This document shows, one piece after another, positions 18,888 through 62,392 of a DNA stretch of 64,000 nucleotides. The notes beneath the pieces are model-generated. The model searched no databases. It worked only from the letters and a program-made list of their open reading frames with translations, and had not been told where the DNA came from. The stretch is from Actinoplanes palleronii (GTDB lineage Bacteria > Actinomycetota > Actinomycetes > Mycobacteriales > Micromonosporaceae). Location: NCBI RefSeq assembly GCF_016862315.1, contig NZ_BOMS01000014.1:62001-126000 (forward strand), in the 5' to 3' direction. Position 1 is the stretch's first letter, and every line of letters starts with the position of its first letter. The position numbers were made by a program, and so were the translations under genes.

Positions 18888-20108
18888 ATGATCGCTCCTT
18901 TGGTCCGCACCGTGCTGCCCCCTCGTCTCGGCGCTGATTTCCGCTGGCTGGTCGGCTCGTCCTGGGCGACGAACCTCGGTGACGGCATCTCCGCGGCGGC
19001 CGGTCCGCTGCTCGTCGCCTCGCTCACCGACGACCCGTTCCGGATCTCGTTGGCCGCTCTGCTCTCCTGGGCCCCGCCGCTGGTCTGCGGCCTGTACGCC
19101 GGGGTGCTCTCGGACCGGCACGACCGCCGCCGGATCCTGCTGCTCGCCAACGCGGTCCGGGTGCTGGTGCTGCTCGCCCTGATCGGCACGCTGGCCACCG
19201 GCCGGCTCTCGGTGGAGCTCGCCCTGCTCGGGCTGGGGCTGCTCAGCACGGCCGAGGTGTTCGCCGACAACACCACCGGGACGCTCGCGCCGATGCTGGT
19301 GGACCGGGCCGACCTGCCGCTGGCCAACGCCCGGCTGTCGGCCGGGTTCATCACGCTGAACCAGCTGGCCGGCCCGCCGCTGGGCGCCGCGCTGTTCGCC
19401 GCCGGCCGGGCCTGGCCGCTGGCCGGCGAGGTGCTGCTGCTGGTGGCCGGCACGCTGCTGGTCTCCCGGGTCCGGCTGCCGGCGCACAGCCGGCCCGCGA
19501 CGGCCGGGGTGCGCCGCGACGTGGCCGAGGGGGTCCGCTGGGTGGTGCGCCACCCGGCGGTCCGGACCCTCTGCCTGATCGTGCTGATCTTCAACCTGGC
19601 GTTCGGGGCGTCCTGGTCGGTGCTGGTGCTCTACGTGAGCGAGCGGCTCGGGCTGGGCTCGATCGGCTTCGGCCTGGTCACCACGGTGATGGCGGCCGGC
19701 GGGATCCTCGCCACCGGCGCGTACGGCTGGCTCACCGCCCGGGTCAGCCTGGGCAACCTGATGCGGATCGGCCTGTTCATCGAGACCGGCACCCACGCGG
19801 TGCTCGGGTTCACCGCCTCGCCGTGGGTGGCGCTCCCGACGTTCTTCCTGTTCGGCGTGCACGAGTTCGTCTGGCGGACCACGGCGACCACGGTCCGGCA
19901 GCGGTCGGTGCCGACGCACCTGCAGGGCCGGGTCGGCGCGGTCAGCGTCATCTGCATCTACGGCGGGCTGGTGGTCGGCGCGGCGGCCGGCGGCGTGCTG
20001 GCCTCGCGGTACGGCGTGGCCGCCCCGTTCCAGGTGGCGTTCGTCTGCGCGGCGATCTTCCTGGCCGTGCTGTGGCCGCAGATGAAACACATCGCCCACG
20101 ACGACTGA
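18888..20108 (+). CDS. MFS transporter (exporter-like)
   Basis: A 406-residue major facilitator protein with about twelve hydrophobic segments. The loop GVLSDRHDRRRILLLANAVR after segment 2 matches the MFS loop 2-3 motif. It resembles the MFS_3 (EntS-like) group of siderophore or drug exporters by overall layout. The substrate cannot be read from sequence. Its stop lies 18 bp before the argS leader peptide. Confidence 0.85.
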   Translation: MIAPLVRTVLPPRLGADFRWLVGSSWATNLGDGISAAAGPLLVASLTDDPFRISLAALLSWAPPLVCGLYAGVLSDRHDRRRILLLANAVRVLVLLALIGTLATGRLSVELALLGLGLLSTAEVFADNTTGTLAPMLVDRADLPLANARLSAGFITLNQLAGPPLGAALFAAGRAWPLAGEVLLLVAGTLLVSRVRLPAHSRPATAGVRRDVAEGVRWVVRHPAVRTLCLIVLIFNLAFGASWSVLVLYVSERLGLGSIGFGLVTTVMAAGGILATGAYGWLTARVSLGNLMRIGLFIETGTHAVLGFTASPWVALPTFFLFGVHEFVWRTTATTVRQRSVPTHLQGRVGAVSVICIYGGLVVGAAAGGVLASRYGVAAPFQVAFVCAAIFLAVLWPQMKHIAHDD

Positions 20109-20114
20109 GGCCGC

Positions 20115-20126
20115 TATAGTCGCGGC
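20115..20126 (+). promoter_or_regulatory. -10 element for a leaderless argS leader transcript
   Basis: TATAGT at 20115-20120 is separated by 6 nt from the ATG at 20127, the spacing expected when transcription starts at the A of the ATG. There is no ribosome-binding site. The -35 region lies inside the end of the MFS gene and shows no clear consensus. Confidence 0.5.
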
Positions 20127-20177
20127 ATGCACAGCACCTTCAGCGAGCGACGCCGGCGACTTCACGGCCGCCGCTGA
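20127..20177 (+). CDS. Arginine-rich leader peptide of argS
   Basis: A 16-codon ORF reads MHSTFSERRRRLHGRR and ends in TGA. Six of 16 codons are arginine: a run of four (CGA CGC CGG CGA, codons 8-11) and two CGC codons just before the stop. It precedes the arginyl-tRNA synthetase gene by about 90 bp and is followed by a strong GC hairpin. This is the layout of ribosome-mediated attenuation: when charged tRNA-Arg is scarce, the ribosome stalls on the arginine run. The reading is direct; the regulatory role is inferred from the match between the codon content and the gene controlled. Confidence 0.7.
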   Translation: MHSTFSERRRRLHGRR

Positions 20178-20211
20178 ACTGTGCTTTCCGCCGGCGGGTC
20201 GATCCCGCCGG
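20168..20211 (+). terminator. argS attenuator: Attenuator-like hairpin with competing antiterminator
   Basis: CCGGCGGG (20191-20198) pairs perfectly with CCCGCCGG (20204-20211) around a 5-nt loop. No T-run follows, as is usual for high-GC actinobacteria. CCGCCG at 20168-20173, within the last codons of the leader peptide, can instead pair with CGGCGG at 20192-20197 and would block the terminator stem. Stalling at codons 8-11 would leave that segment free, while translation to the stop would cover it. Confidence 0.55.
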
Positions 20212-20268
20212 TTGCTGACGTGTCACTCCGGTCGACCCGCTTCGTTCGTACGATGAATGGGGTTGATC

Positions 20269-21912
20269 GTGAATTTTGAATCTCTCCTGTCGGATCGGCT
20301 GGCACCCGCGCTGGAAGCGGTCGCCGGCCATCCGGTCGATCCGGCGGTGCGGGCGTCGCCGCACGCCGACTTCCAGTCCGGTGCGCCGCTGGCCCTGGCC
20401 CGGGAGCTGGGCCGGGCGCCCCAGGAGATCGCCGCCGAGGTGGCCACGCGTGCCGACCTGGCCGGGCTCGCCGAGATCACCGTCTCCGGTCCGGGGTTCC
20501 TGAACCTGACGATCGGCGACGACCTGCTCGCCGAGAGTCTGCGGCTGACCGGTGCTGATCAGCGGCTCGGTGTGCCCGCGACCGCCGCGCCGGAGCGGAT
20601 CGTGATCGACTACTCCGGGCCGAACGTGGCCAAGGAGATGCACGTCGGGCACCTGCGGTCGACGATCATCGGGGATGCGCTGGCCCGGACGCTGGAGTGG
20701 CTGGGCCACGACGTGGTCCGGGTGAATCACCTGGGCGACTGGGGGACCCCGTTCGGGATGCTCGTCGAGCACCTGGTCGACCTGGGCGGCGCGGCTGATC
20801 ACTCGATCCGGGATCTGACCGCGTTCTATCAGGACGCCCGGGTCAAGTTCGACACCGACGACGACTTCCGGACCCGGGCCCGGCTGCGGGTGGTGGCGCT
20901 GCAGTCCGGCGATCCGCTCTCCCGGGACCTGTGGCAGCGGCTGGTGGCCCAGTCCGAACGCTACTTCCTGGACGTCTACCAGCGGCTCGGCGTCACCCTC
21001 GGCCCGGACGACTTCGCCGGTGAGAGCCGTTATCAGGACGACCTTCCGGTGCTGGTGGCCGAGCTGCTGGCGCAGGGTCTGCTGACCGATAGCGACGGCG
21101 CGCTGTGCGCGTTCCCGGACGGGTTCACCGGGCGGGACGGCGACGCGCTGCCGCTGATCGTGCGCAAGGCCGACGGCGGTTTCGGGTACGCCGCGACCGA
21201 CCTGGCCGCGATCCGGCACCGGGTCGGCACGCTCGGCGCGGACCGGTTGCTCTACGTGGTCGGCGCACCGCAGCGCACCCACTTCGAGATGGTCTTCGCG
21301 GTGGCCCGGAAGGCCGGCTGGCTGCCCGGCGGGGTGACCGCCGAGCACCTCGGGTTCGGCTCGATCCTGGGCGCGGACGGCAAGATGCTGAAGACCCGGG
21401 CCGGCGACACGATCAAGCTGGCCGAGCTGCTGGACGAGGCGGTGGCCCGGGCGACCGCGCCGGCCATCGGGATCGGCGCGATCAAATACGCCGATCTCTC
21501 CGGTGACCGGCGGGGCGACTACGTCTTCGACTGGGACCGGATGCTGGCCAGCACCGGCAACACCGGTCCCTACCTGCAGTACGCCTACGCCCGGATCCGG
21601 TCGCTGTTCCGCAAGGCCGGCACCGGGCCGGGACCGGTGACGGTGACCGAACCGGCCGAGCGGGCCCTGGCCCTGACCCTGCTCGGTTTCGAGCCGGCGC
21701 TCCGGGCCGCCGCCGGTCAGGCCGAGCCGCACCGGCTGGCCGGATACCTGCACGACCTGGCCGTGGCCTTCTCGGTCTTCTACGAGCGGTGCCCGGTGCT
21801 GCGGGCCGCCGACGACGTGCGGGCCAGCCGGCTGGGGCTGGCCGAGCTGACCGCCCGCACCCTCCACACCGGAATGTTTCTGCTGGGTATCGAGACGCTC
21901 GAGGAGATTTGA
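20269..21912 (+). CDS. argS: Arginyl-tRNA synthetase
   Basis: A class I aminoacyl-tRNA synthetase of about 547 residues. It has the HIGH-type motif KEMHVGHLRSTIIGDAL, a C-terminal anticodon-binding (DALR-type) domain, and GADGKMLKTRAGDTIKL in place of KMSKS, all normal for ArgRS. GTG at 20269 is chosen because GGGG lies 6 nt upstream; ATG at 20257 lacks a ribosome site. It attaches arginine to tRNA-Arg. An arginine-rich leader peptide and hairpin precede it, suggesting control by tRNA-Arg charging. Confidence 0.95.
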   Translation: MNFESLLSDRLAPALEAVAGHPVDPAVRASPHADFQSGAPLALARELGRAPQEIAAEVATRADLAGLAEITVSGPGFLNLTIGDDLLAESLRLTGADQRLGVPATAAPERIVIDYSGPNVAKEMHVGHLRSTIIGDALARTLEWLGHDVVRVNHLGDWGTPFGMLVEHLVDLGGAADHSIRDLTAFYQDARVKFDTDDDFRTRARLRVVALQSGDPLSRDLWQRLVAQSERYFLDVYQRLGVTLGPDDFAGESRYQDDLPVLVAELLAQGLLTDSDGALCAFPDGFTGRDGDALPLIVRKADGGFGYAATDLAAIRHRVGTLGADRLLYVVGAPQRTHFEMVFAVARKAGWLPGGVTAEHLGFGSILGADGKMLKTRAGDTIKLAELLDEAVARATAPAIGIGAIKYADLSGDRRGDYVFDWDRMLASTGNTGPYLQYAYARIRSLFRKAGTGPGPVTVTEPAERALALTLLGFEPALRAAAGQAEPHRLAGYLHDLAVAFSVFYERCPVLRAADDVRASRLGLAELTARTLHTGMFLLGIETLEEI

Positions 21913-21982
21913 GGAAAGTTGATCACCGCGCAACCTTCCGTTGATCGACCGATGACCTGATCCCCCGTTAGGGTGCTTCTTT

Positions 21983-22005
21983 CGGCGCGCCCACAAGGCG
22001 CGCCG
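21983..22005. terminator. Perfect 9-bp hairpin between argS and the 5'-nucleotidase gene
   Basis: CGGCGCGCC pairs perfectly with GGCGCGCCG around the 5-nt loop CCACAA-like sequence. It is 70 bp beyond argS and 28 bp before the next ATG. It may terminate argS or be a structured 5' leader; no T-run is seen. Confidence 0.55.
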
Positions 22006-22032
22006 CTTGAACTCCCCTGCGAAAGGCTCGCA

Positions 22033-23835
22033 ATGACGCTTCCCAACGGCGTATCGCGGCGTGGCGTGCTGGCGGTCTCGGCCGCCGCCGCTGCGGCACC
22101 GCTCGCCTTCCCCGGCTCGGCGCAGGCCGGCGGCAAGGGCGCCCCGAAGCCCCCGAAGACCCCCGAGACGTTCCAGCTGACCGTGCTGGGCACCTCGGAC
22201 ACGCACGGCAACGTGTACAACTGGGACTACTACAAGGACGCCGAGTACGACGACTCCGCGCACAACGACGTCGGTGTCGCCAAGCTGGCCGCGCTCGTGA
22301 ACAAGCTGCGCGCCGAGGCGACCGGCGCCACGCTGGTGCTCGACGCCGGTGACACGATCCAGGGCACCCCGCTGGCGACCTACTACGCCAAGCAGGAGCC
22401 GATCACCGAGACCGGCGCGAAGCACCCGATGGCCAAGGCCATGAACGTGCTGCACTACGACGCGATCACGCTGGGCAACCACGAGTTCAACTACGGCCTG
22501 CCGCTGCTGAACCTGTGGATCCGGCAGCTCGGCTTCCCGGCCCTGGCCGCCAACGCGGTCAGCGCGAAGACCGGCAAGCCGGCGTTCACGCCGTACATCA
22601 TCAAGAAGGTCTCGCTCGGCAAGCACGCGCCCACCCTGCGCGTCGGCATCCTGGGCCTGACCAACCCGGGCGTGGCGATCTGGGACAAGGGCAACGTCGA
22701 GGGCAAGCTCAACTTCCTCGACATGGTGGCGACCGCCGCCAAGTGGGTGCCGATCATGCGGCGCAACGGCGCCGACGTCGTGATCATCTCGGCGCACGGT
22801 GGCGACAGCGGCACCTCCAGCTACGGCACCGAGCTGCCGAACGAGAACCCGTCCGCGCTGATCGCCGAGCAGGTCCCGGGGATCGACGCGATCCTGTTCG
22901 GGCACGCGCACAACGAGGTCGCGCAGCGCTTCGTCACGAACACCAAGACCGGCACCCAGGTGCTGCTCTCCGAGCCGTCGAAGTTCGGCCAGCGGCTCAC
23001 CAAGATGGACTTCACGCTGGTGCGCGAGCACGGCTGCTGGAAGATCACCACGAAGGCGTCGGCCACGCTGAACACCAACACCGTCGAGGCCGACCCGAAG
23101 GTGCTGGCCGCGGTGAAGGGCCAGCACGAGAAGACCGTGGCGTACATCAACCAGGTCGTCGCGGCGTCGACCGCGGAGCTGTCCGCGGCCACCTCGCGGT
23201 ACGAGGACACCCCGATCCTCGACTACATCAACAAGGTGCAGACCGACACGGTGGTGGCCGCGCTGGCCGGCACCGCGTACGCGGCTCTGCCGGTCCTCTC
23301 GATCGCCGCGCCGTTCAGCCGGACCGCGGTGTTCCCGAAGGGCGACGTCAAGATCAAGGACGTCGCGGGGCTGTACATCTACGACAACACCCTGGAAGCC
23401 GTCGTGCTGACCGGCGCCGAGGTGCGTGCCTACCTGGAGTACTCGGCGAAGTACTTCAACACGTACGCGGTCGGCGCCGTCGTCGACCCGGCGACCATCA
23501 ACGTCAGCACGGTGCCGGACTACAACTACGACACCCTCTCCGGCGTCGAGTACGACATCGACATCAGCAAGCCGGTCGGCAGCCGGATCACCAAGCTGCA
23601 GCTCAACGGCGTCGACGTGGCCGCCGACGCGCAGTTCGTGATCGCGGTGAACAACTACCGGCGGTCCGGTGGCGGCGCGTTCCCGGGCATCGTGAAGACC
23701 CAGGTCTACAACGAGCAGAAGGAGATCCGTCAGCTCCTGATCGACTGGGCGCAGGCCAAGGGCAAGATCGACCCGGCCGACTTCTTCGCGAAGAACTGGC
23801 AGCTGGTCCGCGAGGGTGTGCCGGTCACGTTCTGA
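22033..23835 (+). CDS. Exported 5'-nucleotidase / 2',3'-cyclic phosphodiesterase
   Basis: A 600-residue UshA/CpdB-type enzyme. A Tat signal peptide has VSRRGVLAVSAAAAAAP with cleavage near AQA-GG. The metallophosphatase domain shows TSDTHGN, DAGDTIQG, GNHEFNYG and GHAHNE metal-binding motifs, followed by a C-terminal 5'-nucleotidase domain (YDNTLEAVVLTGAEVRAYLE). It hydrolyses extracellular nucleotides to nucleosides and phosphate. ATG at 22033 has GAAAGG upstream; the longer frame from 21973 crosses the hairpin and is not used. Confidence 0.92.
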   Translation: MTLPNGVSRRGVLAVSAAAAAAPLAFPGSAQAGGKGAPKPPKTPETFQLTVLGTSDTHGNVYNWDYYKDAEYDDSAHNDVGVAKLAALVNKLRAEATGATLVLDAGDTIQGTPLATYYAKQEPITETGAKHPMAKAMNVLHYDAITLGNHEFNYGLPLLNLWIRQLGFPALAANAVSAKTGKPAFTPYIIKKVSLGKHAPTLRVGILGLTNPGVAIWDKGNVEGKLNFLDMVATAAKWVPIMRRNGADVVIISAHGGDSGTSSYGTELPNENPSALIAEQVPGIDAILFGHAHNEVAQRFVTNTKTGTQVLLSEPSKFGQRLTKMDFTLVREHGCWKITTKASATLNTNTVEADPKVLAAVKGQHEKTVAYINQVVAASTAELSAATSRYEDTPILDYINKVQTDTVVAALAGTAYAALPVLSIAAPFSRTAVFPKGDVKIKDVAGLYIYDNTLEAVVLTGAEVRAYLEYSAKYFNTYAVGAVVDPATINVSTVPDYNYDTLSGVEYDIDISKPVGSRITKLQLNGVDVAADAQFVIAVNNYRRSGGGAFPGIVKTQVYNEQKEIRQLLIDWAQAKGKIDPADFFAKNWQLVREGVPVTF

Positions 23836-54411: not shown

Positions 54412-54486
54412 GGGCGCGTAGCTCAGTGGGAGAGCACCCGCCTTACAAGCGGGGGGTCGTAGGTTCGAAACCTACCGCGCCCACCA
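54412..54486 (+). tRNA. tRNA-Val (anticodon UAC)
   Basis: The acceptor stem GGGCGCG/CGCGCCC, D arm GCTC...GAGC, anticodon arm CCCGC-CTTACAA-GCGGG and T arm with GGTTCGAAACC all form. Anticodon TAC is at 54444-54446 and reads GUA. The CCA end is encoded. Confidence 0.97.
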
Positions 54487-61286: not shown

Positions 61287-62392
61287 GCGGTGACCTGCGG
61301 GTCGTCGTCGAGGCCGACGGTGGTTCCCGGGGCAACCCGGGCCCGTCCGGGTACGGCGCGGTGGTCAAGGACGCGGTGACCGGCGAGGTGCTGCTGGAGC
61401 GGTACGCCGCCCTCGGCACCGCCACCAACAACGTCGCGGAGTACTCCGGCCTGATCGCCGGTCTGCGCGCCGCCGCCGAGCTGAACGCCACCCGGGTCGA
61501 CGTCCGGATGGACTCCAAGCTGGTGATCGAGCAGATGGCCGGCCGCTGGCAGATCAAGAACTCCGGGCTGCGTCCGCTCGCCGCCGAGGCGGCCGGTCTG
61601 GTCGCCAAGTTCGACGAGGTCACCTACGGCTGGATCCCGCGCGAGCGGAACAAGGACGCCGACGCCCTGGCCAACCGGGCGATGGACGAGGCGGCCGGCA
61701 AGACGACGCCGGAGCGGGTGGAGCGCGAGCTCACCGTCCCGAAGCCGCGGTCCTGGGCGCCGCCGTCGCTGGAGAACGCCACCCGCCTGATCCTGGTGCG
61801 GCACGGCGAGACCGCGATGACGTCGCAGGGCCGGTACTCGGGCCGTGGCGACGTGCCGCTCACCGACGCGGGCGAGGCGCAGGCGATGGCCGCCGGTGGG
61901 CGGGTGGCCGGGCTGTCCCGGGACGTCGGCGCGGTGCTGGCCTCGCCGCTGGTCCGGTGTGTGCGGACCGCCGAGCTGATCGCGGCCGAGACCGGTGGCC
62001 TGCCGGTGACGGTGATGGACGACCTGATCGAGTGCGACTTCGGGCTCTGGGAGGGCAAGACCTTCGCCGAGGTGCAGGAGGGCTGGCCGCGGGAGATGAC
62101 GGGCTGGCTGGAGTCGACGAGTGTGGCGCCGCCGCAGGGTGAGTCGTTCCAGACGGTGGCCAAGCGGGTCCGTGGCGCGCTGGCGAAGATCATTGAGGCG
62201 TACCCGGGTCAGACCGTCGTGGTGGTCTCGCACGTCTCGCCGATCAAGCTGATCCTGCGGGACGCGCTGGCCGCCGGTGACGCGTTCCTGCACCGGTTGT
62301 TCCTGGACGCGGCCGGGGTGTCCACCATGGACGTCTGGCCGGACGGCAACATCGCGGTCCGCTCGGTCAACGAGACGGCCCATCTTCGATAG
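61283..62392 (+). CDS. Bifunctional RNase H / acid phosphatase
   Basis: A 369-residue fusion. Residues 1-145 are an RNase HI-like domain (VEADGGSRGNPGPSGYGAV, NNVAEYSGLI, RMDSKLVIEQM). Residues 175-369 are a histidine-phosphatase domain (LILVRHGETAMTSQGRYSGRGD, SPLVRCVRTAELI, VVVSHVSPIKLIL), of the CobC type. It removes RNA from RNA-DNA hybrids and dephosphorylates a small substrate. GTG at 61283 overlaps the preceding stop. The order NIF3, zinc ribbon, RNase H-phosphatase is as in mycobacteria. Confidence 0.93.
   Translation: MSGDLRVVVEADGGSRGNPGPSGYGAVVKDAVTGEVLLERYAALGTATNNVAEYSGLIAGLRAAAELNATRVDVRMDSKLVIEQMAGRWQIKNSGLRPLAAEAAGLVAKFDEVTYGWIPRERNKDADALANRAMDEAAGKTTPERVERELTVPKPRSWAPPSLENATRLILVRHGETAMTSQGRYSGRGDVPLTDAGEAQAMAAGGRVAGLSRDVGAVLASPLVRCVRTAELIAAETGGLPVTVMDDLIECDFGLWEGKTFAEVQEGWPREMTGWLESTSVAPPQGESFQTVAKRVRGALAKIIEAYPGQTVVVVSHVSPIKLILRDALAAGDAFLHRLFLDAAGVSTMDVWPDGNIAVRSVNETAHLR

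Follow-up and report, generated by a model that had tools for sequence, protein, structure and literature searches.

What does a short, arginine-rich open reading frame (ORF) do in front of a gene for arginyl-tRNA synthetase (ArgS)? The question is raised by a locus of Actinoplanes palleronii (contig NZ_BOMS01000014.1), which lies in a stretch of 64,000 nucleotides (positions 62,001 to 126,000 of the contig) that we analyzed as a whole and call the window. All coordinates below are window positions, and the features described lie on the forward (+) strand unless stated. A sequence-only reading of this stretch had recognized in the locus the logic of classical attenuation, with the charging of tRNA-Arg as the signal. 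From comparisons across the genus and the family, exchanges of RNA segments between loci, and folding with ribosomes in place, we conclude that the feature is conserved and is most likely an arginine leader-peptide attenuator of a second argS, acting on translation.

A second argS behind an Arg-rich leader ORF

The leader ORF, MHSTFSERRRRLHGRR with its stop codon included, occupies positions 20127 to 20177 and ends in a TGA at 20175 to 20177. It has 16 codons, six of them for arginine and four of these consecutive (20148 to 20159), just as the sequence-only reading had it. Six bases separate its ATG at 20127 from a −10 box, TATAGT (20115 to 20120), and transcription is expected to start at or adjoining the A of this ATG, which would make the transcript leaderless. 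The leaderless appearance noted earlier holds up in the comparison: all 62 leaders of the genus have an upstream TANNNT box whose end is 6 or 7 nt from the start codon, a count helped by choice, since among alternative leader starts the one behind a −10 box was preferred. We would call the transcript probably leaderless.

The argS gene that follows, at 20269 to 21912, encodes 547 amino acids from a GTG start and is recognized by TIGR00456 (420 bits) and by Pfam PF00750, PF05746, and PF03485; the nearest solved structure to its product is 4oby (526 bits). Mechanical ORF calling puts the start at ATG 20257. Because the start [ATG]TG-AAT-CTC-GAA is largely common to the aligned loci and the in-frame ATG 20257 is not, GTG 20269, set by alignment, is the likely start.

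That the leader precedes argS was correctly seen, but this argS is the second of its genome, another ArgS being encoded next to lysA. The other gene (L002:1390-4439) lies directly upstream of lysA, a neighbor assigned by 464 bits to TIGR01048, and its product is 28% identical to the window ArgS; both proteins score above the TIGR00456 cutoff (416 bits for the lysA-linked ArgS, 420 for that of the window). The lysA-linked type is present in all 67 genus genomes searched and the window type in 66 of them; the exception, G234, gave only a weak match to the window type and one match in the search for the lysA type. In a family sample of 61 genomes, TIGR00456 at an E value of 1e-60 gave two matches in 37, one in 21, and none in 3. 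Since the lysA-linked argS is universal in the genus genomes, it is presumably the housekeeping copy, and the second copy is apparently auxiliary. The lysA-linked argS of this genome (L112) has a GTG start 6 nt behind a TAGCAT box and, judged by eye in this one genome, no leader.

Conservation of the leader in the genus and family

Upstream regions were collected at 63 argS loci (L001 and L003 to L064) from the 66 genus genomes with a window-type ArgS. Comparison of argS upstream regions across Actinoplanes and its relatives, in line with the check that the sequence-only reading had proposed, shows the Arg-rich short ORF to be conserved: a frame of 14 to 21 codons, with its stop 67 to 109 nt upstream of argS, is present at 62 of the 63 genus loci, and such leaders recur in other genera. 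The longest Arg run has four codons in 41 of these 62 leaders, three in 19, and two in 2. The sole genus locus without a leader of this kind, L062 in G220, lacks the argS start pattern and was dropped from the genus counts. By eye, a TAGATT box stands there a few bases before the argS start, so that argS may be leaderless in its own right.

Of the 62 genus loci, 41 (alignment A2) were used to build a covariance model. Run with strict search filters, it matched the second argS in 35 of 36 genus genomes, and not the lysA-linked one, a result that is partly by construction, as many of the 36 test genomes had supplied sequences. The second argS of genus genomes G155 and G216 was matched by the model, and one weak extra match was returned in G056 (E 0.006). 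The model found nothing in 24 genomes of other families, and a search for the element on plasmids gave no match.

For the family, 300 genomes were searched with the ArgS protein as query and 4 candidates were scored per genome, so that absences in this search are not evidence. Among 47 further loci (L065 to L111, mostly from other genera, two from the genus), 33 have a candidate leader, some of these being spurious, and 14 have none. In a Micromonospora-type set of 60 loci, 20 of them shared with the 47, a GC hairpin occurs at 52 loci together with an Arg-rich leader that follows a −10 box. Four loci from other genera (L073, L076, L082, and L087) have Arg leaders with CGA CGA CGA, but the RNA after the leader is laid out differently there and has no GC hairpin.

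Named argS loci were inspected for a leader in 44 of 80 cases, and five of the 44 carry it: those of Actinoplanes cyaneus, Paractinoplanes ferrugineus, P. deccanensis, P. polyasparticus, and Micromonospora sp. AMSO31t. These five belong to genomes already counted and supply names, not independent cases. At the criteria used, 38 of the 44 have no leader, and family members without one at these criteria are Salinispora mooreana, Micromonospora maritima, Catenuloplanes japonicus, and Dactylosporangium vinaceum. A candidate in Brevibacterium, also among the 44, overlaps the argS start and was taken as spurious.

A rare codon in the Arg run

Codon counts and the comparison of genus leaders mark the Arg run of the window, CGA CGC CGG CGA at 20148 to 20159, as the presumed stall site. 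CGA accounts for 3 of the 259 Arg codons in the eight window ORFs taken as genes. Within the longest Arg runs of the 62 genus leaders it makes up 68 of 225 codons, compared with 3 of the 130 Arg codons that lie elsewhere in these leaders. For 27 further leaders drawn from L065 to L111 (14 loci without a candidate and 6 candidates were left out; L098 is a genus member), the corresponding counts are 54 of 90 run codons and 7 of 103 remaining ones. Moreover, the longest run opens with CGA in 61 of the 62 genus leaders and 26 of the 27 further leaders, nine of which have runs of CGA CGA CGA. Codon identity played no part in the selection of leaders.

CGA is decoded slowly, by an inosine-containing tRNA-Arg, and the rare codon is probably the sensor of the run. 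The bias could instead reflect a demand of the RNA on its own sequence, a reading that is weakened by the different RNA contexts which the runs occupy in different genera.

RNA segments in and after the leader

A fold within the leader, supported by covariation, is the hairpin H0, whose 5' arm (segment 0, TTCAGCG) lies at 20139 to 20145 and whose 3' arm (segment 1', CGCTGAA) lies at 20172 to 20178, over the stop codon. Past the leader, the perfect 8-bp GC hairpin described earlier is present: H1 is formed by segment 2 (CCGGCGGG, 20191 to 20198) and segment 3 (CCCGCCGG, 20204 to 20211), and in the alignment its 8 pairs are unchanged in 41 of 41 sequences. The distance from the leader stop to H1 is 13 to 18 nt in 59 of the 62 loci and 16 to 18 nt in 55.

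Two pairings are open to segment 4. As GGTCGACCC (20230 to 20238) it would be the 5' arm of H2, a hairpin predicted by folding and covariation that sequesters the Shine-Dalgarno (SD) region; the 3' arm, segment 5 (GGGTTGATC, 20260 to 20268), holds most of the SD-like GGGG at 20259 to 20262. As GTCGACCCGCT (20231 to 20241) it can pair with GGCGGGTCGAT (20193 to 20203), which is made up of part of segment 2 and the H1 loop. This alternative, 2:4, is suggested by covariation and by the cross-genus comparison, its register being set by hand.

The SD region is paired above the level of shuffled sequence in 50 of 62 loci, and the minimum free energy of the 3' part has a median z score of −1.33, with values below −2 in 18 of the 62. 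RNAalifold, applied to the 41 aligned sequences of A2 from the 62 genus loci, predicted H0 and H1, with one pair changed on both sides; H2 is absent from that consensus. In the whole window, Rfam at gathering score found only a tRNA at 54412, and no T-box or other element at this locus.

Pairings supported by partner swaps

Pairings were examined by partner swap, in which the duplex energies of native segment pairs are compared with those of pairs exchanged between loci. Over all 62 loci, z was −4.9 for 4:5, −4.8 for 2:4, −4.7 for 0:1', and −4.5 for 1:1'; the pairings 1':2 (−0.5) and 1:3 (+1.8) were unsupported. These values are inflated by relatedness, as a control pair (spacer:five) reached +4.4, and for this reason the swaps were repeated on 31 and on 14 clade representatives, with swap windows that tile the leader but include segments chosen beforehand. 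Among 299 window pairs for the 31 representatives, those of H0 rank 1 to 4, segment 4 with its own downstream arm ranks 5, 4:5 ranks 6 (z −3.5), and 2:4 ranks 9 (z −3.2); two windows at the base of H1 also score (−2.9 and −2.8). For the 14 stricter representatives, 4:5 ranks 8 and 2:4 falls to rank 16 of 300.

A scan restricted to Micromonospora was too shallow, as a strict start-codon pattern removed 30 of 52 loci and the 22 left amount to 7 representatives; it was replaced by a comparison across genera, with segments swapped between 62 Actinoplanes-type and 51 Micromonospora-type loci. Here the native 2:4 pairs (−18.9 and −20.8) are stronger than the swapped ones (−15.5 and −13.4), and so are those of H0 (−17.0 and −22.0 native, −14.2 and −14.6 swapped). 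The result for 4:5, obtained with windows of unequal length, is mixed: native pairs at −16.5 and −23.5 stand against swapped ones at −19.0 and −11.9, so that pairing is stronger natively in one of the two. Pairing 1':2 is not kept (native −12.3 and −8.7, swapped −12.4 and −11.4). These comparisons of sequence lend support to the view that H0, the SD-sequestering H2 (4:5), and the alternative 2:4 have been kept by evolution.

The sequence-only reading had placed the alternative pairing elsewhere, between the last leader codons and the 5' arm of H1. The complementarity exists, CCGCCG against CGGCGG, but the pairing does not covary (z as given for 1':2; ranks 70 and 200 of 299, in segments that vary little and give the test low power), and in Micromonospora-type loci it is weaker native than swapped, so we rejected it. 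Two more candidates, 1:3 and 1':4, are attractive by eye or in stalled folds and were set aside for lack of covariation or for the wrong sign. No covariation was found for pairing of the spacer with the 3-4 linker, and swap tests on the genus loci revealed no covarying strand that joins the leader to the switch.

Probable control of translation initiation and its rivals

The SD region is sequestered by the downstream element, for which an alternative partner also covaries, and the locus is therefore better read as one controlled at translation initiation. We hold it probable that the leader is an attenuator acting on translation initiation of the second ArgS: when charged tRNA-Arg runs short, the ribosome on the leader would stall and more of the enzyme would be made. 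A charging sensor would be expected to have a leader, H0, and a rare-codon run, as here, and a translation-initiation switch to have pairings such as H2 and 2:4. In the mechanism we propose, a ribosome would translate the leader and, with charged tRNA-Arg scarce, stall on the CGA-led run; the stall would shift the RNA from H1 plus H2, in which the SD is hidden, to 2:4, in which it is exposed; and the second ArgS would thus be supplied when the other enzyme falls short of demand. Both the sign of control and the coupling of the ribosome to the switch are what we infer: starvation would turn the gene on, the sign we consider likeliest for a gene that encodes a synthetase.

The strongest rival, unlikely in our judgment, is transcription attenuation as in the sequence-only reading, in which the GC hairpin (or 2:4) terminates transcription and a stalled ribosome prevents it, or else Rho acts in the untranslated stretch. 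The layout that such a model asks for is there: regulatory codons lie in a run within the leader, and a strong GC hairpin follows its stop by 13 to 18 nt in 59 of 62 loci. The leuS and trpE leaders of Streptomyces lividans are described with Rho-independent termination in the passages of PMC8079986 available to us. However, a scan of 19900 to 20400 for terminators with a T-rich tail, a search that is blind to Rho, found no + strand terminator-like site. The pairing of the late leader with the hairpin arm lacks covariation and is weak in Micromonospora-type loci, and transcription attenuation offers no account of why segment 4 and the SD region covary. The classical, terminator-type form of the proposal is thus not sustained. 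On the − strand, two T-tailed stems lie at 20090 to 20105.

How a ribosome on the leader might act on the SD region was approached by folding. At equilibrium the SD stays closed with a free, a stalled, or a terminating ribosome, at every position tried. The median cost of opening it is 12 to 14 kcal/mol, and relative to the stop-codon state these medians differ by −0.5 to +0.8 kcal/mol; stalls at R1 or R2 make opening cheaper in roughly half of the 62 loci and costlier in 20 to 21. An ON state reached through equilibrium folding with ribosome masks was accordingly given up, as no switch was seen. In the transcript that ends before segment 5, without a ribosome, 2:3 and 2:4 have similar probabilities (means of 0.32 and 0.41), which allows kinetic control. 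The candidate coupling is of this kind: if the trailing ribosome is lost, 2:4 may have time to form ahead of the transcription of segment 5.

The same transcript speaks for the opposite sign once ribosomes are placed on it, because 2:4 is less likely with a stalled ribosome (median probability of 0.00 at R1 and 0.05 at R3) than with one at the stop codon (0.76). Under this second rival, also unlikely, an Arg shortage would turn the second argS off, for example, if only a ribosome reaching the stop destabilizes H1 and lets 2:4 form. With 16 to 18 nt between the stop codon and H1, as in 55 of 62 loci, a ribosome that terminates comes to lie next to H1, in keeping with such a role, and the Arg leader rbfL of Staphylococcus aureus acts with the same sign in the portion of PMC13009471 consulted. 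Against it, the differences between stall states arise from pairings that do not covary, and a synthetase made only when its own charged tRNA is plentiful is hard to rationalize.

The lack of a ribosome-dependent switch at equilibrium would also suit a leader that is translated but non-regulatory, with hairpins that merely stabilize the mRNA or tune initiation. We consider this improbable, because 2:4 and 4:5 are mutually exclusive and both covary, Arg runs recur across genera in different RNA contexts, and the element is located at the second argS. Least probable of all is that the leader senses a ribosome-targeting antibiotic and not tRNA charging: Arg-X-Arg motifs are sites of macrolide-dependent arrest, the run is rich in them, and the hosts are antibiotic producers, but the gene downstream is argS and not a resistance methylase, and the bias is one of codon choice (CGA), beyond the residue alone.

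Related systems

Returning to control of translation initiation by an Arg leader, two precedents share a part of the design. Vecchione and Sello reportedly placed TrpRS1 of Streptomyces coelicolor, an auxiliary, antibiotic-resistant enzyme, under ribosome-mediated transcriptional attenuation. There as here, a second synthetase paralog would carry the leader-peptide attenuator, the control being transcriptional in that case; the other paralog of the present pair, the lysA-linked argS, lacks the element in the covariance-model search and, judged by eye in L112, has no leader. In erm translational attenuation, a leader stall unmasks a sequestered SD and the signal is a macrolide; the helix order and the sequences of erm attenuators are unrelated to those of the argS leader.

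Among actinobacterial systems, the LEU element before leuA (Seliverstov 2005, PMC1262725) is alike in that the SD of the gene joins the RNA pairing. In that element the strand that pairs with the SD consists of the Leu codons, and the authors propose a pseudoknot; the argS leader differs in that the SD is masked by pairing of two segments distinct from the codon run, 4 and 5, and in that segment 2 competes as the other partner. The same 2005 survey of amino acid and synthetase operons of Actinobacteria gives trp, cys, leu/ilv, and ileS cases and, in the passages covered, reports no conserved structures for genes in the biosynthetic pathways of other amino acids (PMC1262725).

Leader peptides also precede actinomycete tRNA synthetase genes in S. 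lividans, where eight are listed in the sections of PMC8079986 at hand, including those of leuS, trpS, alaS, and thrS. The leuS, trpS, and thrS leaders are stated there to be leaderless, as is expected of the present leader. Unlike the case described here, none of the eight is an Arg leader, and rare-codon bias or an SD switch is not mentioned in those sections; leuS has a Rho-independent terminator, trpS has hairpins without a U-tract, and termination at thrS is called unclear (PMC8079986).

Arginine is also the signal of rbfL of S. aureus, a leader peptide that reads it through rare Arg codons and thereby governs how the gene after it is translated (PMC13009471, in part). In contrast to our proposal, the paused ribosome there occludes the SD directly, with the opposite sign; the target is a biofilm regulator, and the text consulted from that source describes no alternative hairpins. 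The open-access literature searched contained no Arg leader-peptide attenuator on argS, and a word search for argS, arginyl, and arginine in the main texts of PMC2965389 and PMC4833913 returned no mention; the RNA-seq study of Actinoplanes SE50/110 (Wolf 2017) may already list the leader. New within this literature are thus a well-conserved Arg leader on a second ArgS, a rare codon as its probable sensor, and an apparent action on translation initiation.

A broader reading can be offered tentatively. The leader might be a family-wide sensor of tRNA-Arg charging that works through CGA, in which segment 2, as a decoy of segment 5, competes for the anti-SD segment 4 and the backup arginyl-tRNA synthetase (ArgRS) is turned on when the lysA-linked ArgRS is inhibited. 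If true, these soils would be expected to contain natural inhibitors that target ArgRS, or Arg analogues. The question of why the family keeps two arginyl-tRNA synthetases becomes testable, and the leader is a candidate native reporter for ArgRS inhibition.

Further copies and neighboring genes

One window-type argS match (G119:C1:1848779-1850428) reads through a TGA, which may mean that the sequence is in error, the frame edge misplaced, or the copy in decay. Another genus genome holds a further argS copy (L106, G200:C1:5767802-5768262; 57% identity), and the candidate found there is not of this leader type. Upstream of the second argS, within the 1.5 kb examined, an MFS gene was matched in 13 of 30 genus loci. 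The gene downstream, at 21973 to 23835 of the window, encodes a 5'-nucleotidase-like metallophosphatase and was matched in 29 of the 30.
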